A DNA stretch of 64,000 bases from Prolixibacter bellariivorans ATCC BAA-1284 (lineage in GTDB: Bacteria > Bacteroidota > Bacteroidia > Bacteroidales > Prolixibacteraceae). The position numbers and the translations under genes are program-made. Positions within the stretch are counted from its first letter, which is position 1; the number at the start of each line of letters is the position of its first letter. The notes beneath the pieces were generated by a model. That model ran no database searches. It had not been told where the DNA came from and was given only the letters and a program-made list of their open reading frames with translations. Of this stretch, positions 9,201-51,664 are shown piece after piece. The stretch covers positions 124,001 to 188,000 of the forward strand of contig NZ_JHXO01000010.1 of NCBI RefSeq assembly GCF_000621705.1, given 5' to 3'.

Positions 9201-12200
9201 ACCCAATGGAACGTATATCCCAAATACGAATTATTAGTCACATTCACTGTAAACGGGGCACAGCCTTCACCTGACGAAACGGTTATATCTGCAACTGGTG
9301 ATGGTGATACAGTTATCGTATTTACTGTTGTATCAGAACAACCATAATTATTGTAAGCTACCAATTGAACTGTATTGATGGAATCATTCGGTGTGGTATT
9401 ATCAAAGACCCTGACCGGATTCTCTGTAAAATCAGTAGTTCCGTCGTCAAAACTCCACTCGTAACTGAACGCGCCTTGTGATGTGTTCTGGAACCTTACA
9501 GGAAGCGGCGAGCAACCTTGTGTATCGCTAACAAAATCGGCAGTAACCGTAGGGTAAAGATGGATGTTCTTAACGATGGAATCTGTACATCCGAAAGGAT
9601 TATCCCCCTGAACAACCATTTTATAAAACTGTTCAGCCGCATGCGAAGCTGTATAGGTATGTGTAGCGTAACCTCCGCTGTTAATTGTCTCAGTTACTCC
9701 ATCACCATATTTGACTGTATAAGCCTGACCGGAAAGCGACAAATTATCGACACGGACTGTCAACGGTGCACAGCCAACGGTGTCGCTCACACTTACTTTA
9801 ATTTCCGGCGCAGGATGAACCGTTACGGCCTGTTGCAATGTGTCCGCACAACCGTTTACCGAGGTAGCAATTTGCGTTACCGTAAAGAGTTGGTCAATCA
9901 AATTGCCGGTATTCACAAATACATGTTTCGGATTAGCCGAGGTAGCATGAGCACTACCATCGTCGAAGTCCCAATCGAGGTACGATTCTCCCACAGACGT
10001 GTTACTAAACTGAACACCCAAAGGTGAACATCCAACTGTTGGATTCATGTTAAATCCGGCCGTTACCTGTGGATAAACCACAAATACATGCTCATTGGTC
10101 GACTCACAGCCGTATGGCGAAGTGGCAGTTACCTTCAATCGATTACTTATTGTCTGTAACGTTGTGTTCTTATATTCATGTGTAATATTGGTAGGAGCAG
10201 TAGTTACCTGTAAAGGAGAGCCATCACCCCAATCCCATGTCATCGTTGTTCCGGGAGTTGAATTATCAGTAACTTCGACATTGAAAGGAGCACATCCATT
10301 CGTTGCCGAATAAGTCAAATCAATATTCGGAGTTCCGTAAACAGTAATATTCTGTGTCAGACTATCCTTACAACCATCCGGAGTATACGCCAACATCTTA
10401 ACAGTGTAAACCGTATCTCTGTCGGTCGGATTATAGAATGTATGACTTGGGTTCATTTGCGAAGAGGGCGAACTGCCATCACCAAAATTCCATAAATAAT
10501 AATAAGCTCCAACTGAATTGTTCGTAAACTGAACGTTCAACGGGGCACAACCATCTGTTTTAGAAGTAAACACTGCTTGAACTCCCGGCGTTGCCAGCAC
10601 ATTGTCATTCGCAGTACTCACACAGCCCTGTGCATTGGTTGCTGTCAATGTTACCGGGTAACTTTTCGGGTACGTTGTTGCATTCACGTAAGTGTGTGAT
10701 ACTGTTGCTGAAGCGTCGTTTGAGGTCGCTCCATCTCCAAAGTCCCAATCATACGTAGTTGCTCCTGTCGAATTATTCTCAAACAGGGCATCGAATGGAG
10801 AGCAACCCGAAACAATCGGGGTATTGAAACTGGCTTGCGGATTGGCATAAACGGTCACGGTCTGCGAGGTCGAATCTTTTTTCCCGTAAGGGGTAACGCC
10901 AATTAACCAAACGGTATATGTAACATCGGTTGAACCATTATTTTCAAACGTGTGCACCGGATTGGTCAAACGTACATCGGGTGTACCATCGCCAAATCGC
11001 CATATATATGACGTTGCATAGGTTGACGTGTTTCTGAACTGGACCACGACCGGACTACAACCCGCCGTATCGGGTTCGAATGTGATGACCGGCGGATTAT
11101 CCGTATCCAGCACCTGTGTTACAGCATCGGTACAACCAGAGGCAGATGTTGCTGTCAGTGTAATATTGTAGCTTGTGGAAGCATCCGGAGAAACAAAATC
11201 ATGGGTAACGGTAGTCCAACTTCCCAAAGTAACTGTGTTTCCATCTCCGTAATCCAGAACATAACTCACTGCACCATCCGAAAGGTTCGTAAACTCAACC
11301 GTTGTCGTTCCTGCTGCCACATTGGTTACCAACATAGAAAAGTTGGCCTGTGGACTTCCCAATACGTGTACATTCCTGGTAATTGAATCAACACAGCCAT
11401 AATAGGATTTGGAGATTAATTTAACCGAATTCACTGCATCAACACCCGGCGCGGTCTGGTAACGATGGGACGGATCGGCAGTATAGTTGGTTGCGGTACC
11501 ATCGCCAAAGTCCCACTCGAATTGCTGAGCGTTGGTTGACAGGTTTCGGAACTGAACATCCAGAATAGAACATCCGGTTGTATCCGGTTCAAAATCGGCA
11601 GTTACCTGCGGAAGCACCCTGATCGATACTGTAAGAGAATCGCTACAACCTAATGAATTAACAGCCTTCAACTTCAGTTTATAAGTAGCCGGGGTTGTTG
11701 TGCTATTATTATATAAATGGGAAATATTACCCAGACTGTTGGTCGTTTGCGTGGTGCCATCACCAAAATCCCAGTAATACGTAGTTGCACCTGTCGATAC
11801 GTTCGTCGCATCGAAAGTAAAAGGTGTACAACCGGTATAGCTTGAGGCATTCAGATCGGCTACCGGTGCCGGAGCTACCAGGAATGCCTGATGTGCCGTG
11901 TCGGAACAACCATACAGTGAAGTGGCAGCTAACGAAACATTATATATTGTATCGTTAAGACCGTAATTATTAAATATCCTCACCGGATTTTTCACATACT
12001 CTTTTGCACCACCATCACCGAAATTCCATTCGTATGAGAATGCTCCGGTTGAAGTATTGGTGAAATCGACTACCAACGGAGCACACCCAGCTGTATCTGC
12101 AGAGAACGAGGCAGTAACACCCGGATAAACCACAATACTCTTCACCACAGAATCCTGACATCCAAATGAGTTGGTCGACTTCACCACCAGATTATAGGTT

Positions 12201-41990: not shown

Positions 41991-43430
41991 TCATCTACGA
42001 CCTCGTCGACCTCCACCTCTTGAGCCTTTCGAACCAGTTGCTCCTGAACTGGAATCATCTGTAGCCACTTCTTCATCATCACCCTTTCCATCTGGCCGAT
42101 TACCATGAGATTCTTCCTCTGCGGTGTAAGAGAAAGGTGATGAAGAACGATCGACATTCGGCATTTGCCATACCATAAACTCTTCATTACCATGAATGAG
42201 TTCAAGTGCCTGTACATAGTCATCAGCCTGGTTGGTAAATCCGTCCATTTTTTTCTTGTAAGGAGCGTCAATTGTATACCGATAAGTGCCTAACAGAATA
42301 TCCAGTTCGGCTGCGTTGCCCTTCAGAATCTTATGAATAGTATAGGTTCCCAAGTCTTTATACGTCCATGGGTCAGTCGAATCGTCAATAGTGCGAATGG
42401 TGACAAACGTTTTCCAGAATTTTTGCCGGGTGTACATAAACGCGGACAAGTCGATATACTTCTTCACAACAGTTTCCTGCTCCTTGTTAGTTTTGTTCAA
42501 TATTCTAACGGTTTTCTCTATAACAGGATAGAAACATTCATCACCAGGAATGCCCATAAATTCGTTCAGATAGCATATCTCATCTATCGTCAAAGTTCCT
42601 GTTTTATCAGAACCTGCACTGACACAAGCCGCACAAAGGTTGGCAACAAACAATTGCTCTTCTTCCAGAGACATAAACTCTACGGGTTTTTCACTCTGAC
42701 TCCAGTCGCTAATATTATCGAGTCGACCTTTTATCTTGAAGTTATCCTTAAGGAAACTGAGTTCACCGTGAAATCCGTGGGCCAGTAACTCTTTATAAAC
42801 AGCTAAATTCTCTAATGGTGAATCGATAGGCTTATCTTCCATATCCTGCTCGAGAGCAGCATCTGTTCTAACCATAAATAAACGGCCACAATAGTCGCGA
42901 ATAACTTCAGATACCGTTCCGTCGCCAAAATTCTTAATCACCTCTTCTAACCTGCGGGCAAGAACTTCCGGTCCCGAACGAATCAGGTTTAAACGTCCCA
43001 TTTCAATTTCCTGGACATTCTCTCCCACAACTTCATAAACCTCACCTTCGGAATCGTAAAGCAAAGGCACATCATCCCATTCCGGGAAACCGCCTCCTTC
43101 GGGAACAATTACATCACCTTCGGGAGTTGTAATACTGGCTGTGAGATAGGGAATCGTTACATCGATAATTCCTTCTTTCACCACATCCTGAAACTCCACA
43201 GAGTATTCCAGCGGGTATAACTTGGGTATTCCTTTCAAATTACGCTGGATAACCCACAAGTCACCATACAGATCGCTAGGATCAACAGTAATCTTTTTAC
43301 CTTTCTTCAAAACTAACTCAGCTTCAGCCTCGTCTTGTTCGTCAAGGAATGATTGTTGACATCCTGCAAACAAAAAGCAGATTGCAAGGGACAACAATAG
43401 CATCAATTTCATTTGTTTTAGGTTTCTCAT
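41991..43430 (-). CDS. Unknown lipoprotein with Arg/Gly-rich C-terminus
   Basis: I do not recognise this 479-residue protein. It has a lipoprotein signal (LLLSLAICFLFAGC, Cys about 24). The first 150 mature residues are acidic, with KKGKKITVDPSDLYGDLWV and PEGDVIVPEGGGFPEWD. A middle region has CAACVSAGSDKTGTLTIDEIC, a pattern with paired cysteines. The tail is low-complexity and ends in GSRGGGRRGRR, which would be strongly basic. It faces the LuxR-type regulator gene across a 277-bp divergent region with a palindrome. Function unknown. Confidence 0.7.
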   Translation of the reverse strand: MRNLKQMKLMLLLSLAICFLFAGCQQSFLDEQDEAEAELVLKKGKKITVDPSDLYGDLWVIQRNLKGIPKLYPLEYSVEFQDVVKEGIIDVTIPYLTASITTPEGDVIVPEGGGFPEWDDVPLLYDSEGEVYEVVGENVQEIEMGRLNLIRSGPEVLARRLEEVIKNFGDGTVSEVIRDYCGRLFMVRTDAALEQDMEDKPIDSPLENLAVYKELLAHGFHGELSFLKDNFKIKGRLDNISDWSQSEKPVEFMSLEEEQLFVANLCAACVSAGSDKTGTLTIDEICYLNEFMGIPGDECFYPVIEKTVRILNKTNKEQETVVKKYIDLSAFMYTRQKFWKTFVTIRTIDDSTDPWTYKDLGTYTIHKILKGNAAELDILLGTYRYTIDAPYKKKMDGFTNQADDYVQALELIHGNEEFMVWQMPNVDRSSSPFSYTAEEESHGNRPDGKGDDEEVATDDSSSGATGSKGSRGGGRRGRR

Positions 43431-44644: not shown

Positions 44645-44887
44645 ATGCGAATAAAAAAAAGTGTTGCTGTAAGTGAAAACGGATTTGTTTTCGACAGCTC
44701 AACAGGCGATTCATTCAACCTAAACAGCATTGGGCGGGAGATTGTGGAGTTAATGAAAAATGGCTCTGAACAATCTGAAATAACCCAAAAAATTGTTGAA
44801 CGATATGAAGTTGAACCAGCCATTTTTGAGCAAAACCTGATGGATTTTCAGTCCATGCTCAAACAATTTAACCTAATGGAAGAATAA
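44645..44887 (+). CDS. PqqD-like protein (RiPP recognition element)
   Basis: An 80-residue single-domain protein of the PqqD family: short beta strands at the N-terminus (SVAVSENGFVFDSSTGDSFNLN) followed by three helices (IGREIVELMKNG, SEITQKIVERYEVEP, NLMDFQSMLKQF). Such winged-helix modules bind leader peptides of ribosomally made natural products, or act as adaptors in related enzyme systems. It is the first gene of a six-gene block, 33 nt before the ATP-grasp gene. No PqqA, PqqE or radical SAM gene is present, so this is not PQQ synthesis. Confidence 0.85.
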   Translation: MRIKKSVAVSENGFVFDSSTGDSFNLNSIGREIVELMKNGSEQSEITQKIVERYEVEPAIFEQNLMDFQSMLKQFNLMEE

Positions 44888-44920
44888 TCACTACAATTTT
44901 AATCCTTTGAAGTTCCTCCT

Positions 44921-45967
44921 ATGCCAAGAAAAAAAATAACAATTGCCATTACCGGATTAAATAATACGGATAATCCGGGGCCTGGAGTACCTTTTATCCG
45001 TGCCATCAGAGAGTCGGACAGATTTGAAACTACCGTCATTGGGCTGGCTTACGAAAACCTCGAACCCGGTATTTACATGGAAGGCATTACCGATAAGACC
45101 TACCTGATTCCCTACCCTTCGTCCGGGGCGGAGCAATTGCTCGCACGCATAGAACAAATACACCGCAAAAACCCGATTGATGTGCTGATTCCCAATTACG
45201 ATGCAGAGCTTTTCACCTTTATTAAAAATGAAGGTTGGCTTCGGGAAAGAGGAATCAGGACATTTCTTCCAGGAATGGAAAGCTTTATGGAGCGGACAAA
45301 AGATAACCTCAGCTCGTTTGGGGAAAAGTACGATTTAAAAGTACCAAAAAGCCTGCCGTTAACCGGAGCTCACCAAGTCGACCAACTATTCGAGGATCTG
45401 GACTTCCCGGTTTTTGTCAAAGGTAAATTCTACGATGCGTATAAGGCCTGGGACAAACACGAGGTTAGTACCCTGTTCCATAAAATAAGTGCAAAATGGG
45501 GCCTCCCGGTTATGGTCCAGGAGTTTGTGGAAGGTACAGAAGTAAACGTCATTGCACTGGGCGATGGCAAAGGAAACACGATTGGTGCTGTACCCATGCG
45601 GAAAACCTACATCACCGATAAGGGTAAAGCATGGGGTGGCATTACCATCGACGATGAAAAAATGCTTTCGCTGACCTATGATATTATCCGGAAAACCAAG
45701 TGGCGTGGCGGAATGGAGCTGGAAATGATTCGAACCCGGGACAACGAATACTACATCATCGAAATTAATCCGAGGCTTCCTGCCTGGCTCTATCTCGCTG
45801 TAGCTGCAGGGCAAAATCTTCCGGAAGCAATGGTCCGCCTGGCACTTGACGAAAAGGTTGAACCCTTTCATGCTTTCAAATCCGGCAAAATGTTCATCCG
45901 CTACTCATACGATTTGATTGGAGATATTTCTCTTTTCGAGAGCATTACAGTGAAAGGTGAATTATAA
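44921..45967 (+). CDS. ATP-grasp ligase of the carbamoyl-phosphate synthase/PylC-like type
   Basis: A 348-residue enzyme: an N-terminal Rossmann-like part (ITIAITGLNNTDNPGPG), then an ATP-grasp domain with FPVFVKGKFYDAY (ATP-binding Lys), VMVQEFVEGTEVNV, and the metal-binding EINPRLPAW near residue 285. Such enzymes activate a carboxylate with ATP and join it to an amine or similar nucleophile. The N-terminus resembles that of the carboxylate-amine ligases, so the product is likely an amide or peptide. Substrates unknown. It lies between the PqqD-like gene and a decarboxylase-like gene in one operon. Confidence 0.87.
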   Translation: MPRKKITIAITGLNNTDNPGPGVPFIRAIRESDRFETTVIGLAYENLEPGIYMEGITDKTYLIPYPSSGAEQLLARIEQIHRKNPIDVLIPNYDAELFTFIKNEGWLRERGIRTFLPGMESFMERTKDNLSSFGEKYDLKVPKSLPLTGAHQVDQLFEDLDFPVFVKGKFYDAYKAWDKHEVSTLFHKISAKWGLPVMVQEFVEGTEVNVIALGDGKGNTIGAVPMRKTYITDKGKAWGGITIDDEKMLSLTYDIIRKTKWRGGMELEMIRTRDNEYYIIEINPRLPAWLYLAVAAGQNLPEAMVRLALDEKVEPFHAFKSGKMFIRYSYDLIGDISLFESITVKGEL

Positions 45968-45997
45968 AATTAACAACTACTGAAAAACAATAAAGCT

Positions 45998-47344
45998 ATG
46001 GCAAAATTAGCCTACGAAAGACCCATTATCAACCGGATTAGTGCCGGTATCCCCGATAAGTTCGGAATGCAAAGCCGCATTCGCCCCATCCCACAAATAG
46101 AGGGCTTGTCTGTCGAAGAGTTGATGAAGAAACACGGCTCCCCATTATTTGTACTCTCCGAAAAAACCATTCGGGACACATTCCGCAGTGCCCTGAAAGC
46201 TTTCGAAACACGTTATCCTTCTGTTCAGTTTGCATGGTCGTATAAAACCAACTACCTCGACAGCGTGTGCCGGATATTTCACCAGGAAGGTTCATGGGCC
46301 GAAGTCGTTTCTCGTTTTGAATACGAAAAAGCGCTGGCCAACGGTGTTCCGGGAAATCAAATCATCTTCAACGGGCCGCACAAAACCCGCGACGATTTGG
46401 AGGTTGCGATTGAAAATGACTCGCTGATTCACATCGATCACTTCGATGAATTGTATACCCTGCTGGAAATTGCCGGTAAATCGGTTACCAAGCCCAAGGT
46501 TGCGATCCGTGTTAACATGGACACCGGAATTTTTCCCCGTTGGGAACGGTTTGGTTTCAATTACGAAAACGGTGAGGCATGGGATGCCCTGAACCGAATC
46601 ATGCTAAGTGGAAAGCTCGATTTAGTGGGTCTTCACACCCACATCGGAACGTATATTCTGGCTCCGTCTGCCTACGGAATGGCAGCCAACAAACTGGCTC
46701 AACTGGCCATTAATTTGGCACGGAAATACAACCACCACATTCAATACATCGACATGGGCGGCGGTTTCGCATCGAAGAATACCCTGAAAGGAGCTTATCT
46801 TCCGGGTACGGATACCTGCCCAACTTTCGATGAATATGCTGATGCCATCACCAGCGCATTAATCAACTCAGAAATTGAACCGGATCATATGCCGACTCTT
46901 TTCCTCGAATCAGGCAGAGCATTGATTGACGATGCCGGTTATTTGCTGGGAACAGTAGTTGCCAATAAGCGCCTTCCCGATGGTCGCCGGGCAACGATAG
47001 TAGATGCCGGAGTGAACCTGTTGTTTACCTCATTTTGGTACGATCACCAGGTTGTGCCAGCGGTTATTTCGTCACAGCATACCGAAAACACAACTATCTA
47101 CGGACCTCTTTGCATGAATATCGACATTCTGCGCGATGCCGTTATGTTTCCACTACTGAGACCTGGAGAACGAATTGTGGTTCCACGTGTTGGTGCTTAT
47201 AATATGACCCAGTGGATGCAGTTCATCACCTACCGGCCTAATATTGTTCTGATTGACACAGAACAGCGCATACATGTGATTCGCGAACAAGAGAACCAAA
47301 ACACATTTCAAACATCCGAACGTATTCCTCAATATTTAAAATAA
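45998..47344 (+). CDS. Diaminopimelate/ornithine decarboxylase-like enzyme with leader-like N-terminus
   Basis: A fold-type III PLP enzyme of 448 residues. The PLP lysine is in FAWSYKTNYLDSV (about residue 88), followed by the barrel, with GLHTHIGTYI, YIDMGGGFASKN and the C-terminal sheet with YGPLCMNIDILRD (active-site Cys of the partner subunit). It resembles LysA and related amino-acid decarboxylases but is not clearly LysA itself. Before the domain, about 30 residues contain YERPIINRISAG (6-17), a YxxP...G pattern like the leader peptides bound by RRE proteins. The gene ends one nucleotide before the next start codon. It probably decarboxylates a bound amino acid or peptide; inference. 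Confidence 0.87.
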   Translation: MAKLAYERPIINRISAGIPDKFGMQSRIRPIPQIEGLSVEELMKKHGSPLFVLSEKTIRDTFRSALKAFETRYPSVQFAWSYKTNYLDSVCRIFHQEGSWAEVVSRFEYEKALANGVPGNQIIFNGPHKTRDDLEVAIENDSLIHIDHFDELYTLLEIAGKSVTKPKVAIRVNMDTGIFPRWERFGFNYENGEAWDALNRIMLSGKLDLVGLHTHIGTYILAPSAYGMAANKLAQLAINLARKYNHHIQYIDMGGGFASKNTLKGAYLPGTDTCPTFDEYADAITSALINSEIEPDHMPTLFLESGRALIDDAGYLLGTVVANKRLPDGRRATIVDAGVNLLFTSFWYDHQVVPAVISSQHTENTTIYGPLCMNIDILRDAVMFPLLRPGERIVVPRVGAYNMTQWMQFITYRPNIVLIDTEQRIHVIREQENQNTFQTSERIPQYLK

Positions 47345-47345
47345 C

Positions 47346-49556
47346 ATGACCGAAAACCAGCACATCGTTCTGGCCTCCATACCACGAAGCTATGCTCAGG
47401 TGTTCTTTTCCAATTACTCATTCCTGGGATGGTTATTACTCGGAATTAGTTTTATCGACTGGGTAGCCGGAACCTGTGGCTTGATTGCCGTTATTGCGGC
47501 CAACACCATCGCATGGCTTTTAGGCTATTCTTCCGAAATGATTAACCAGGGAATGTACGGGTTTAATGCATTGCTGGTGGGATTGGGAACGGGACTCGGT
47601 TTCCAGCCCGGATGGGAACTCTTCTCTATTACGATTTTCGCCGCAGTTTTTACGTTATTCCTGACACTCGCATTGGAAGGCATTTTATACAAGTACAACC
47701 TTCCCTATCTCAGCCTTCCGTTTATGTTTGGAATGTGGATGGTCATGCTGGCTTCCCGCGACTTTCAATCGCTCGGCCTCAGCGAAAGAGGTATTTATAC
47801 CGCCAATGAATTATTCACACTGGGAGGGAAACCGCTGGTTGATCTCTATTATTCAATCAGTCACATCGACTGGCCACCATCAATCCGCACCTACTTGTTA
47901 TCGCTTGGCGCGATTTTCTTTCAAACAAATTTGCTTGCCGGAATGCTAATCGCGCTCGGCCTGTTACTTTTTTCGCGGATTGCATTCACTCTTTCAGTAT
48001 TAGGGTTCAGCATAGCCTGGGGATTTTATCAGCTTACCGGCGCCAGCATCCACGAGTTGACGTATACGTACATCGGATTTAATTACATCCTCACAGCTAT
48101 TGCTATTGGTGGTATTTTCCTGGTTCCGTCATTTAAGAGTTACCTCTGGACGGCTATTTTGCTTCCTATTGTAGTCATGTTGACATTAAGCCTTGGAAAA
48201 GTGTTTTTGTCCTTTGGTCTTTCGGTTTATTCTCTGCCCTTCAATATTGTAGTCATCACATTTGTGTATGTTTTAAAATTACAACTGGAGCCCGAAAAAG
48301 GTCCTGTAGAGGTCACTTTACAGGAAAATTCTCCTGAGCGGAATTTATATCACTTTATCAACACCAAACAACGATTCTCCAATCCCAATTATCTTCCCGT
48401 ATCTCTTCCATTCTTTGGTGAATGGACCGTTTTACAAGGACATTCCGGAGAATACACACACAAGGATGAATGGAAACATGCGTGGGATTTCGTCATTACC
48501 GACGACGAAGACCAACAATATCGTGGCGATGGCGATTGGGTAACCGACTATTATTGCTTTGGAAAAGCAATTTCTGCGCCGGGAGACGGAACCGTGGCGG
48601 AGCTACTGGAAGGTGTTCCCGATAACAAAATAGGCGATGTGAATACCCACCAGAACTGGGGCAATACGATTGTCATTAAACACAGCGACTACCTGTATTC
48701 AAAACTATCACACTTGAAAGAGGGCAGCATAAAAGTAAAGAAAGGGGAATTTGTAAAGCAGGGGCAGAATATTGGTGAAGTTGGTAATTCCGGTCGCTCG
48801 CCTTATCCTCATCTGCACATGCAATTCCAGGTGCTACCCAACATTGGTGCTCCTACCTTTTCATATCCTTTGGGTCAATACATTCTCAACAATGGGAAGT
48901 CTGCTGAACTAAGGTCATTTGCCATTCCCCGTAAAGGGGATAAAATCTCCAGTATCCGGAAAACAAAACTTCTCGAGGAGGCGATGCATTTTATACCGGG
49001 AGAACGTCTTCATTTCCGAATCATCAAGAATGATATTCCATCTTATCGCAGACTTCCGGAAGATTCGAAATGGATTGTGGACACAACTTCCAGAAATGAA
49101 TCCAGATTAATTTCCGAAACGGAACAAGCTGTTGCCTGGATTTACAACGATGGACAAGTGCACTATTTCAGCCATTTCAAGGGGAAAAATAAGTCGTTGC
49201 TCTACCTGTTCTTTTTAGGCTTATTCAAGGTTCAGTCCGGCTTCTATTCCGACCTGGAGATCAAAGATAGCATCCCAGCTAACCTGGTTTTCCCGAAAGG
49301 CTGGATGTTTTTCCATGACTTTACAGCTCCATTCTTCCGTTTTCTTCACGCCGACTTTACATTACAATATTCCAGCATCGATAACCCGACAATGCCCGGA
49401 TTAATTGAACTAACAGCAACTGTCGAGAAGAAAATAGGAAACCGGCAACTTAGTCAAATGACATTCAAAACAGAAATAGGTCCAACCGGAATTAATAAAA
49501 TCACCGTCGAAGAGGACGGAAAAAAACTGATTGCGCTATGCGAAGAACCATCTTAA
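47346..49556 (+). CDS. Urea-transporter-like channel fused to an M23 metallopeptidase domain
   Basis: A 736-residue fusion. Residues about 20-305 form a urea-transporter (UT) family channel: ten or so hydrophobic segments and the UT-type sequence MINQGMYGFNALLVGLGTG near residue 61. Residues about 370-510 are a peptidase M23 (LytM) domain, with the zinc ligands apparently intact: H and D in KHAWDFVI and HxH in PHLHMQFQV, and the glycine-rich loop around APGDGTVAE. The last 220 residues are not recognised. The peptidase is likely on the periplasmic face. The start ATG follows the previous stop by one nucleotide, and the end overlaps the next gene by 19 nt. Confidence 0.88.
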   Translation: MTENQHIVLASIPRSYAQVFFSNYSFLGWLLLGISFIDWVAGTCGLIAVIAANTIAWLLGYSSEMINQGMYGFNALLVGLGTGLGFQPGWELFSITIFAAVFTLFLTLALEGILYKYNLPYLSLPFMFGMWMVMLASRDFQSLGLSERGIYTANELFTLGGKPLVDLYYSISHIDWPPSIRTYLLSLGAIFFQTNLLAGMLIALGLLLFSRIAFTLSVLGFSIAWGFYQLTGASIHELTYTYIGFNYILTAIAIGGIFLVPSFKSYLWTAILLPIVVMLTLSLGKVFLSFGLSVYSLPFNIVVITFVYVLKLQLEPEKGPVEVTLQENSPERNLYHFINTKQRFSNPNYLPVSLPFFGEWTVLQGHSGEYTHKDEWKHAWDFVITDDEDQQYRGDGDWVTDYYCFGKAISAPGDGTVAELLEGVPDNKIGDVNTHQNWGNTIVIKHSDYLYSKLSHLKEGSIKVKKGEFVKQGQNIGEVGNSGRSPYPHLHMQFQVLPNIGAPTFSYPLGQYILNNGKSAELRSFAIPRKGDKISSIRKTKLLEEAMHFIPGERLHFRIIKNDIPSYRRLPEDSKWIVDTTSRNESRLISETEQAVAWIYNDGQVHYFSHFKGKNKSLLYLFFLGLFKVQSGFYSDLEIKDSIPANLVFPKGWMFFHDFTAPFFRFLHADFTLQYSSIDNPTMPGLIELTATVEKKIGNRQLSQMTFKTEIGPTGINKITVEEDGKKLIALCEEPS

Positions 49557-50875
49557 TCATCCTGTTATTAGTTCCACTCTTCACGAGGGCACAGGAAAAG
49601 TTAACCCCAGTTGAGGTTGATAAGGAAACATACGCGTATTACTTAAATGGAGAATGGAAAAAATTGATACAATTATCCAAAGAAGCCAGAAAGGAAGGAA
49701 TCGACTTCTTCTATTTGAATACGCGTACTGCCATTGCCTACTACAATCTGGGGCACTATCGTAGGTCCATTCCGCTTTTTGAAAACGCTTTGCAGGAAAT
49801 AAAAGGCGACACCATCCTTCTGGAGTACCTTTATTATGCATACCTCTTCTCAGGAAGAAATCAGGATGCTGTGTTTCTGACCCGGGAATTCCCCGAATCA
49901 CTAAAGAAAAGGCTTGACGCCAAACCCAAAGCCGTCAGAAATTTTTCAATTGAATCCGGAGTTAGTAGCAATACCGATTACAACAGTATTTCGACCATGT
50001 CGCGAAATCGAAATTCCAGTGTATACGATGACAACTATTATCCCAAAAACCAATACTATGTAACCACAGGACTCGTCCATGATTTGGGATCCGGCCTTCG
50101 TTATACCCAAGCATACACCTACATTCAGATTAATGAAGAACAGCACATTCGTGAAATGGGAAACCAGCCAAACGAATCGACACATACAACTGCTCAAAAC
50201 CAGTATTATGGTGCGCTGGACTTCAACCTTGGTGATGGGTTTCATCTCATTCCTTCACTAAACATGCTATGGGGAAAATACAGCTACATTGCCTTATCAT
50301 ACGATTCAAATGATGCAGCGATTTACAGCCTCGTTGACGAAAATTTCAATGACTACTCTCTCTATCTCGGGTTGTTCAAAAATTTTACATACTTCAGCAC
50401 CGAACTTAGTGGAAGTTTCGCCAATCTTTTGGGTATCGATTGCTCGCAGTTTAACGGACAGTTGGCCATTTACCCTTTGGCAAACCTTAACTTTTACCTG
50501 GTTTCCACCATTAGCCTTAAGCAGCAAAAACTCACTTCAGCAAATTATTCTGACAATAACATGGTTTTCAACCAAAAAATCGGCTTCAAGGCCGGACCAT
50601 TTTGGCTGGAAGGTTACTATACCGATGGTTCCATGCAATTTCTTTCGGAAGCCAATAACTATGTAATCTGGAATACACCATACCCCATTGATTCAAGGTG
50701 GGGCGCTAATCTGATCCTTCCCATCCATCAAAACCGATTGCAACTCGTGTTCCGTTACTATTCAATGAAGCAAAAAGGATACATGTTGTATTACGAAGAC
50801 ACAGACACTTATCAATATGAAGAATACAATTTCACAAATCAGAATTTCTCAGGAGGACTGACATGGAATTTCTAG
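49538..50875 (+). CDS. Exported TPR protein with outer-membrane beta-barrel
   Basis: A 445-residue protein with a signal peptide (about 1-19, ending TRA-Q). Residues about 25-125 form two or three TPR-like helical repeats (YYNLGHYRRSIPLFENAL, YYAYLFSGRNQDAVFL). From about 150 on, alternating aromatic beta strands (YYVTTGLVHDLGSGLRYTQAYTYIQ and so on) end in a terminal aromatic strand GGLTWNF, typical of outer-membrane barrels, possibly of the YaiO kind. The start overlaps the previous gene and the end overlaps the next by 13 nt, so it is part of the same translationally coupled operon. Confidence 0.8.
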   Translation: MRRTILIILLLVPLFTRAQEKLTPVEVDKETYAYYLNGEWKKLIQLSKEARKEGIDFFYLNTRTAIAYYNLGHYRRSIPLFENALQEIKGDTILLEYLYYAYLFSGRNQDAVFLTREFPESLKKRLDAKPKAVRNFSIESGVSSNTDYNSISTMSRNRNSSVYDDNYYPKNQYYVTTGLVHDLGSGLRYTQAYTYIQINEEQHIREMGNQPNESTHTTAQNQYYGALDFNLGDGFHLIPSLNMLWGKYSYIALSYDSNDAAIYSLVDENFNDYSLYLGLFKNFTYFSTELSGSFANLLGIDCSQFNGQLAIYPLANLNFYLVSTISLKQQKLTSANYSDNNMVFNQKIGFKAGPFWLEGYYTDGSMQFLSEANNYVIWNTPYPIDSRWGANLILPIHQNRLQLVFRYYSMKQKGYMLYYEDTDTYQYEEYNFTNQNFSGGLTWNF

Positions 50876-51486
50876 TAAAAATAACAATTGCAGTAGCTTT
50901 CCTGCTGTCATTTCAAACAGCAAAAGCTCAACAGGATTTCAATGCAGTGATGACTGCATTTGAAAAGAGTTACACCTACGAAAAGCAGAATGACTTCAAC
51001 AAGGCCATCCAGGAACTTAAAAATGTTTATTCGGATGACTCATACGAAATCAGTCTGAGACTAGGATGGTTGGACTACCTGCAGGGTAATTTCACTGAGT
51101 CTGCATCGCACTACCGGCATGCAGTCGAATTAAAGCCTTATTCCGAGGAAGCCAAGATGGGGCTTGTTCTTCCGCTTTCGGCTTCGGGGAAATGGGATGA
51201 AGTAGTTAGTTTGTATAACAAAATACTGGATAATAATCCAAAAAATACCAAAGTCAACTACAGGATGGGATTAATCTACTACAACAGAAAACAATACGAG
51301 AAAGCCTTTCCTTACTTTAAAACAGTTGTCGACCTATATCCTTTTGATTACGATGGTCTTCTGATGCTGGCATGGACGCACCTCAACCTGGGACAAACCC
51401 GTGAAGCAAAGGTCCTTTTTCAAAAATGCCTGCTTTTCAAACCCGGTGATCCATCGGCCAGCGATGGCCTATCGCGAATTCCCTGA
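50863..51486 (+). CDS. Exported tetratricopeptide-repeat protein
   Basis: A 207-residue periplasmic protein with a signal peptide (about 1-21, ending AKA-Q) and at least four TPR units (EKQNDFNKAIQELKNVY, GWLDYLQGNFTESASHYRHAV, GLIYYNRKQYEKAFPYFKTV, AWTHLNLGQTREAKVLFQKCL). Such proteins act as scaffolds. It is the last gene of the RRE/ATP-grasp operon and is followed by a strong terminator. Confidence 0.88.
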   Translation: MEFLVKITIAVAFLLSFQTAKAQQDFNAVMTAFEKSYTYEKQNDFNKAIQELKNVYSDDSYEISLRLGWLDYLQGNFTESASHYRHAVELKPYSEEAKMGLVLPLSASGKWDEVVSLYNKILDNNPKNTKVNYRMGLIYYNRKQYEKAFPYFKTVVDLYPFDYDGLLMLAWTHLNLGQTREAKVLFQKCLLFKPGDPSASDGLSRIP

Positions 51487-51534: not shown

Positions 51535-51664
51535 TTCCATAAAGGAGCCCATTCCCCTATGCTCCTAACCCCAACAAGCACGTAACAGGAAATGGGCTTT
51601 CTAACCTCCCCCCAGAGGTACCTTTTACTTAAGTTCCGCGTGATGGGACTTAAGTTTTTTTTTC
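51535..51664 (+). ncRNA. Candidate small structured RNA with alternative hairpins
   Basis: Between two terminators lies a 130-nt segment with dense pairing. AGGAGC (51543-51548) can pair with GCTCCT (51561-51566), or AGCCCATT (51546-51553) with AATGGGCT (51591-51598); these exclude each other because they share AGC. ACCTC / GAGGT forms a small stem, and the final hairpin ACTTAAGTTCC / GGGACTTAAGT (51627-51655) is followed by T9. There is no open frame of note. No RNA family is recognised, and it has no clear downstream gene (next at 52343), so a stand-alone RNA is possible. Confidence 0.35.
51627..51664 (+). terminator. Intrinsic terminator of the candidate small RNA
   Basis: ACTTAAGTTCC / GGGACTTAAGT pairs with one wobble around a 7-nt loop, followed by T9. 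Confidence 0.75.

Follow-up and report, generated by a model that had tools for sequence, protein, structure and literature searches.

The analysed stretch (the window) comprises 64,000 nucleotides of Prolixibacter bellariivorans ATCC BAA-1284 (contig NZ_JHXO01000010.1, positions 124,001 to 188,000), and the subject of this analysis is a six-gene operon at window positions 44645-51486. The six neighbouring open reading frames (ORFs) are all located on the forward strand, at the coordinates given in a preliminary description of the locus, and their Pfam matches agree with the operon reported there. The first gene (44645..44887) encodes an 80-aa PqqD-like protein (Pfam PqqD, 1.9e-8), which is a predicted RRE (recognition element of ribosomally synthesized and post-translationally modified peptides, RiPPs) by family match, with a putative function in leader binding. 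It is followed by genes for a 348-aa ATP-grasp ligase (44921..45967; Pfam ATP-grasp families, ATPgrasp_Ter 1.1e-11) and a 448-aa pyridoxal phosphate (PLP) decarboxylase of the alanine-racemase fold (45998..47344; Orn_Arg_deC_N 1.4e-30). The fourth gene (47346..49556) encodes in a single frame a 736-aa fusion of a urea transporter (UT) channel and an M23 peptidase (UT 1.7e-60 and Peptidase_M23 1.9e-16), here called UT-M23. The last two genes encode a probable outer membrane barrel of 445 aa with a hydrophobic N-terminal signal, a TPR segment and a C-terminal WNF (49538..50875), and an exported TPR protein of 207 aa (50863..51486; TPR_2 3.6e-23). The intergenic gaps across the six genes are 33, 30, 1, -19 and -13 nt.

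The survey covered 395 evenly sampled Bacteroidota genomes from 171 genera. A UT-family match was obtained in 45 genomes, which were divided by the lengths of their open frames into 34 genomes with UT-M23 fusions (33 in a single frame and one, G005, with a broken frame), 10 with stand-alone UTs and 1 with a fragment below the cut-off. The profile of the operon ATP-grasp matched 35 genomes at 1e-20, of which 34 reached 1e-100; the 35th match (G369, 1.5e-30) was partial and distant. The operon decarboxylase was found at E<=1e-100 in 34 genomes, representing 27 genera. At this threshold for the two enzymes, UT-M23, ATP-grasp and decarboxylase occupied the identical 34 genomes, and the ten genomes with stand-alone UTs were on neither the ATP-grasp nor the decarboxylase list.

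The neighbourhoods were compared between the window and 43 fetched loci, giving 44 loci (designated by L numbers). These represent 43 assemblies, since L043 and L063 are the two ends of one contig (G124:C1), and they reduce to 38 when decarboxylases more than 95% identical are counted once. A single-sequence scan of the genome contigs gave at least 10 loci, and only a narrow stretch was fetched for G373. Ten named loci contributed in part to the alignments, with L058 absent from A1 and A2, L057 and L058 from A3, and L054, L058 and L059 from A4.

The ATP-grasp, decarboxylase and UT-M23 genes were present in all 44 loci, with a broken fusion frame in L061, as was the PqqD-like gene, which was recovered by BLAST clustering in 40 loci and by profile in 4. 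The order and strand of these first four genes were kept in 44/44 loci, with median gaps of -4, 11 and 9 nt, which indicates that the gene order is not due to chance. The preliminary description had proposed a single system, to be recognized by a gene order recurring in other genomes. This expectation was confirmed, in that the set occurs together in many Bacteroidota genomes and not in this genome alone, and the operon almost certainly constitutes one conserved system. All six genes had dN/dS (nonsynonymous to synonymous substitution rate) values of 0.017-0.064 between the window and the Prolixibacter denitrificans locus L051, indicating strong purifying selection relative to that locus. The UT-M23 proteins of the window and L051 share 90% identity, and the window genome is close to that species.

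A few loci deviate in detail. In L061 (G005), UT and M23 are in separate frames with the switch within a T run at about 11000-11030, probably a frameshift or a sequencing error; intact copies are found in other loci. The operons at the two ends of contig G124:C1 have identical decarboxylases and probably represent an assembly overlap, not two copies. In L069, the PqqD-like gene is contained in a longer open frame. At L054:5695-6549, a gene for a DUF4405 membrane protein separates the PqqD-like gene from the ATP-grasp gene, and no other compared locus has one there.

The decarboxylase had been described as DAP-decarboxylase-like. Its assignment as a PLP decarboxylase holds, but it is not a diaminopimelate (DAP) decarboxylase, to which its likeness is only distant; FigC, the N-citrylornithine decarboxylase of Francisella, is nearer. 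The best solved relative was N-citrylornithine decarboxylase (7kh2, 3.9e-57, versus 2.1e-37 for DAP decarboxylase), and FigC ranked ahead of DAP decarboxylase both in the single-sequence search (197 versus 132 bits for the best) and in the profile search (248 versus 173 bits), in which BtrK scored 124-125 bits, behind several DAP decarboxylases. The score against the DAP decarboxylase model TIGR01048 was 218.8 bits (cut-off 297.9). The genome has its own LysA elsewhere, with 390.7 bits against the same cut-off, a CESSD motif and an adjoining aspartate kinase gene, and a role of the operon in lysine biosynthesis was therefore rejected. A third homologue of the decarboxylase in the genome is a 634-aa frame (2e-8).

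Residues K83, C372, M373, I375 and Q405 of the decarboxylase were identical in 44/44 loci. The glutamate beside the cysteine and the specificity-helix arginine of LysA, which serve the distal centre of DAP, are both replaced in the operon enzyme, by Met373 adjoining the catalytic Cys (44/44) and by Thr344 (43/44), respectively. According to PMC7857480, Met355 of FigC, next to the catalytic Cys, stands in place of the acid that binds a free side-chain amine, Thr327 is one of the residues replacing the DAP decarboxylase arginine, and His357 and Arg387 are modelled as citrate contacts. The correspondence between FigC and the operon enzyme was read off sequence alignments. The Met beside the catalytic Cys, as in FigC, makes it probable that the substrate of the enzyme is an amino acid that has been ligated beforehand. 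The citrate contacts of FigC correspond to Ile375 and Gln405 (44/44 each), which makes a citrate-like conjugated group improbable. Likewise, the score against the FigC-type model NF041039 was 219.7 bits (cut-off 500), and there is no NIS (nonribosomal peptide synthetase-independent siderophore) synthetase among the six operon genes. In its residues, the enzyme resembles the polyamine-unrelated alanine-racemase-fold type (FigC, SbnH, BtrK and MccE), and a conjugated substrate is predicted.

The scores of the ATP-grasp ligase against NCBIfam equivalogs were far below the cut-offs, and a sequence search of the PDB gave no match at 0.001. The predicted model (predicted local distance difference test, pLDDT, 83.2) has a complete ATP-grasp fold. 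The fold search gave a best Z of 26.6 to 2pn1, with an amino acid ligase and PylC among other matches, and many classes tie. Residues K127, K167, E268, E281, N283 and R285 were identical in 44/44 loci. The single-system idea was to fail if the two enzymes were clear orthologues of enzymes from an unrelated pathway; it was not refuted on this ground, as both are below NCBIfam cut-offs and LysA is encoded separately.

Among 72,556 plasmid records, the ATP-grasp matched 19, with the top match in Streptomyces zaomyceticus (2e-23; next best 1e-10). This match is a 758-aa protein annotated as hypothetical (L087:7998-10274), with an ATP-grasp in its N-terminal part and a decarboxylase of the same fold as the operon enzyme in its C-terminal part, which has Cys-Met at the key position, as in the operon enzyme. 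Two enzyme types that are encoded side by side in one phylum and form a single protein in another very likely act in sequence. The proposal that ligation is followed by decarboxylation is thus supported both by the pocket residues of the decarboxylase and by the Streptomyces fusion, and we consider this order of reactions probable. In a relative of the decarboxylase from Antarctobacter, Cys-Val is found instead.

The UT domain of UT-M23 (residues 11-309, 47376..48272) matched solved UT channels from end to end, with a Z of about 25, and the M23 domain (about residues 349-511, 48390..48878) matched M23 folds with Z up to 14.2. A C-terminal beta-rich region (residues 512-736, 48879..49553) is seen in the predicted model only. 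In solved UT channels, both ends are cytoplasmic, and the same topology is predicted here. With loop limits set by hand from the helices of the predicted model, the face of the UT domain bearing the N- and C-terminus had 11.4 Lys and Arg per 100 residues, compared with 3.0 on the opposite face. The bias had the same sense in 43/43 UT-containing rows of the alignment (the row of L061 holds the M23 piece only) and in 8/8 stand-alone UTs (8 of 10 loci; L050, with no ORF, and L005, with a broken frame, were left out). The hydropathy profile showed no additional membrane segment between UT and M23. Based on the charge pattern, the UT fold and the lack of a further membrane segment before M23, the peptidase is predicted with fair assurance to reside in the cytoplasm.

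Residues H372, D381, H456, H489 and H491 of M23, which we take from the M23 motif to have zinc-binding and catalytic roles, were identical in 44/44 loci. The preliminary description had suggested that M23 opens or trims peptidoglycan. The topology of the fused channel does not support this suggestion: the predicted cytoplasmic location speaks against access to peptidoglycan and favours cutting of a peptide or amide in the cytoplasm. Membrane M23 proteins from haloarchaea and Thermus were considered as cytoplasmic precedents and set aside for their ambiguous topology.

The channel itself differs from stand-alone UTs at some filter positions and agrees with them at others. The second pore-helix Glu was found in 0/44 fusions (mostly Ala, 25, and Leu, 10, with 1 Gln), as compared to 6 Glu and 2 Gln in 8 stand-alone Bacteroidota UTs. 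In 36/44 fusions, Ser takes the place of the Gln that follows the first pore-helix Phe, and in 39/44 that of the UT signature Thr. The channel may well carry a solute other than urea.

The barrel gene was identified in 43/44 loci (23 of the window type, 16 of family c6, 3 of family c26 and 1, in L070, by eye), mostly downstream of the other genes and upstream in L069, L072 and L078; the TPR gene clustered in 38/44 loci. The window-type barrel matched c6 and c26 with hhalign probabilities of 97.3 and 96.1, respectively, which is moderate evidence for the relatedness of the barrel types because beta-barrels share general patterns. The barrel profile was built from barrels longer than 330 aa, with L054 dropped, and the 27 chains listed among its PDB matches aligned with its TPR part. 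Of the earlier designation of the 49538 gene product as a TPR and outer membrane barrel protein, the barrel is retained by prediction, and the TPR match is only sub-threshold, in the window protein (0.058) as in a homologue (1.4e-4).

A signal-like hydrophobic N-terminus, as scored by a crude hydropathy measure, was observed in none of the 44 ATP-grasps, none of the 44 decarboxylases and 1 of 40 PqqD-like proteins. It was present in 34/38 TPR proteins and in 19/23, 15/16 and 3/3 barrels of the window, c6 and c26 types, respectively. These predicted locations agree with the earlier division of the operon into a cytoplasmic RRE, ligase and decarboxylase on the one hand and envelope proteins on the other.

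The nearest solved chains to the PqqD-like protein were TbiB1 (1.4e-4) and TfuB1 (1.9e-3), which we take to be lasso-peptide RREs. In the 2 kb upstream and 2.5 kb downstream of the operon, no small ORF was shared by more than three loci besides the PqqD gene and its antisense frame, in a count that omitted frames inside longer ORFs. Accordingly, the arrangement that characterizes RiPP and graspetide loci, a precursor gene beside the maturation enzymes, was not seen within this range. Either the partner peptide of the RRE is unlinked, or the RRE serves a different part of the system.

We tentatively propose that the operon encodes a single biosynthesis-and-release system. In the cytoplasm, the ATP-grasp would form an amide or a similar bond between an amino acid and a carrier, which is probably a peptide that the PqqD-like RRE presents. 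The PLP enzyme would then decarboxylate the joined amino acid, like BtrK on a carrier and FigC on N-citrylornithine. M23, held by the UT-type channel on its cytoplasmic side, would hydrolyse the conjugate at the channel mouth, whereupon the small product would cross the inner membrane via the channel and exit via the TPR protein and the outer membrane barrel. The basis for this proposal lies in the sequences, namely the conservation of the set, the intact catalytic residues and the predicted locations. The reaction order is likely and the carrier is less sure; M23 is a candidate for the releasing enzyme that may well prove wrong, and for the direction of transport we lean towards export rather than import. 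In its most far-reaching form, the proposal describes a new kind of release-and-export machine, in which a passive UT-type channel with a cytoplasmic M23 cuts the decarboxylated product from its carrier at the channel mouth and thereby couples release to exit, with no energy-driven pump, fed by the RRE/ATP-grasp/decarboxylase line and continued by a dedicated TPR protein and barrel. As a whole this form is doubtful, and the preferred reading is the tentative proposal itself.

Several observations weigh against this reading. No conserved carrier or precursor adjoins the operon in the 2 kb upstream and 2.5 kb downstream, and the idea that the PqqD-like protein is itself a carrier modified at its C-terminus was rejected, as the C-terminal tail is not conserved and too variable. 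To our knowledge, M23 enzymes with an established function have peptidoglycan as their substrate and work outside the cytoplasm. The predicted model of UT-M23 is of moderate quality (pLDDT 72.8, predicted template modelling score 0.55). Other filter positions are kept in the fusions (first pore-helix Gln in 34/44, second pore-helix Phe in 38/44 and Gln in 39/44), so a urea-like solute is still compatible with the channel. Moreover, UT channels are known to carry small neutral molecules, whereas a decarboxylated amino acid would normally be charged. The Streptomyces fusion is also an imperfect parallel: its decarboxylase domain is distant from the operon enzyme (25% identity), matches the lysA model with 88.8 bits, below the cut-off, and gave no match to the FslC model at 1e-10. 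The fusion is the only one of its kind in the plasmid collection, where coverage of at least 80% was reached by itself alone. No PqqD match was found at its locus, which suggests that such a ligase/decarboxylase pair is not always RRE-dependent.

If M23 were instead periplasmic, the system could modify the envelope: what the ligase and decarboxylase make would be attached to peptidoglycan or the outer membrane, or exchanged with either, by way of the UT, TPR and barrel proteins. The peptidoglycan endopeptidases that match the M23 fold, the five intact metal and catalytic positions, and the frequency of the barrel (43/44 loci, one by eye) and TPR (38/44) genes would all suit this explanation. 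We consider it improbable, since the charge pattern and the UT fold set both UT ends on the cytoplasmic face and the hydropathy profile lacks an extra membrane segment ahead of M23. Equally improbable is a true RiPP pathway with an unlinked precursor, in which the RRE binds a leader encoded elsewhere, the ATP-grasp and decarboxylase modify the core, and M23 removes the leader at the membrane like peptidase-containing ABC exporters. Such a pathway would be in line with the similarity of the RRE to TbiB1 and TfuB1 among solved structures and with the fusion of a membrane channel to a peptidase that is predicted to be cytoplasmic, but the UT pore is narrow for a peptide, no radical SAM (S-adenosylmethionine) enzyme is among the six genes, and the small-ORF count, with frames inside longer ORFs uncounted, gave only the PqqD gene and its antisense frame in more than three loci. 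Least probable is a carrier-free pathway to a small-molecule conjugate, for example a metallophore or an amide used in signalling, in which UT-M23 would act in uptake or recycling instead of export. The six conserved genes include neither a siderophore receptor nor an NIS synthetase, and the residues with which FigC binds citrate are replaced. In favour of such a pathway, the relatives FigC, SbnH and AcsE act in siderophore synthesis (PMC7857480), and AraC-type regulators are found upstream in 4 loci, with a weak, sub-threshold HMA match where tested (L052). An anti-phage defence role was rejected, as the six proteins had no PADLOC match at 0.001.

The genes flanking the operon are more variable. 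An orphan LuxR regulator had been noted just upstream of the operon, but its cluster was present in 3/44 loci and upstream of the operon only in the window and L051, and the regulator was rejected as an operon part. The AraC-type regulators (family c14) lie upstream of the PqqD gene in L052, L053, L056 and L060, and the other loci have different neighbours. A secreted protein, c7, is encoded just upstream of the PqqD gene in L031, L032, L034, L036, L037, L040, L076, L077 and L080, and the copy in L034 ends in a type IX secretion tail. With a presence in 15/44 loci, the tailed c7 was rejected as a general operon part; it is possibly a lineage-specific partner. A lipoprotein-like protein of 479 aa encoded on the reverse strand at 41991-43430 had no Pfam or NCBIfam match at 0.1 and is also found in L051. 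A terminator-like stem-loop followed by a T-run on the forward strand (51627..51663), with a 12-pair stem (51627-51655) identified by a consensus scan, is located 140 nt 3' of the last operon gene, and is weak evidence for a terminator because the scan gave 17 such sites as compared to 8.1 expected.

A literature search of open-licence PubMed Central papers yielded no description of the six-gene combination or of UT-M23 with these partners, and the accessible portions of PMC8939145 and PMC10352776 mention neither M23 nor urea. Thus, every part belongs to a known family, whereas the set and UT-M23 with these partners appear undescribed in that literature. The retention of the operon over 27 sampled Bacteroidota genera points to a generally useful product, which fits none of the pathways compared below. 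The operon provides a concrete example, open to testing, of an ATP-grasp beside an RRE that takes part in ligation followed by decarboxylation, and of a urea-channel fold with a fused peptidase that has possibly been adapted to another solute. Plain annotation would yield a "urea transporter" and a "diaminopimelate decarboxylase"; the residues contradict the second and leave the first undecided. The most surprising point of the analysis is the predicted cytoplasmic M23.

Two known systems offer analogies. In peptidase-containing ABC exporters, a cytoplasmic C39 peptidase is fused to an exporter with an ABC motor, whereas the operon combines M23 with a passive channel, and there is no homology. 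In the LysX/LysW amino-group carrier pathway and in the pearlins, an amino acid is joined to a carrier, modified and released by a peptidase, and no homologous carrier was identified in the operon. The lasso RREs TbiB1 and TfuB1 and PqqD share with the operon a small stand-alone RRE-type protein; unlike in those systems, no precursor gene was found beside the operon, and its six genes include neither a radical SAM enzyme nor a lasso cyclase. The UT domain resembles the urea channels dvUT and UT-B in its fold, predicted topology and several pore motifs, but differs from them in the fused M23, in some filter positions and in the linkage to biosynthetic genes. In butirosin synthesis (BtrI/BtrJ/BtrK), BtrJ is an ATP-grasp, the carrier is an acyl carrier protein of 87 aa, and BtrK, a decarboxylase of the same fold as the operon enzyme, acts on the carrier-bound amino acid. 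This system is without UT-M23, whereas the operon has an RRE-type protein without signs of being a carrier. Finally, in Francisella rhizoferrin synthesis the ligase FigA is an NIS synthetase and not an ATP-grasp, and His357 and Arg387 of FigC are replaced by Ile375 and Gln405 in the operon enzyme; yet FigC/FslC with FigA provides the nearest solved decarboxylase, the same Met beside the catalytic Cys and the same logic of ligation followed by decarboxylation.

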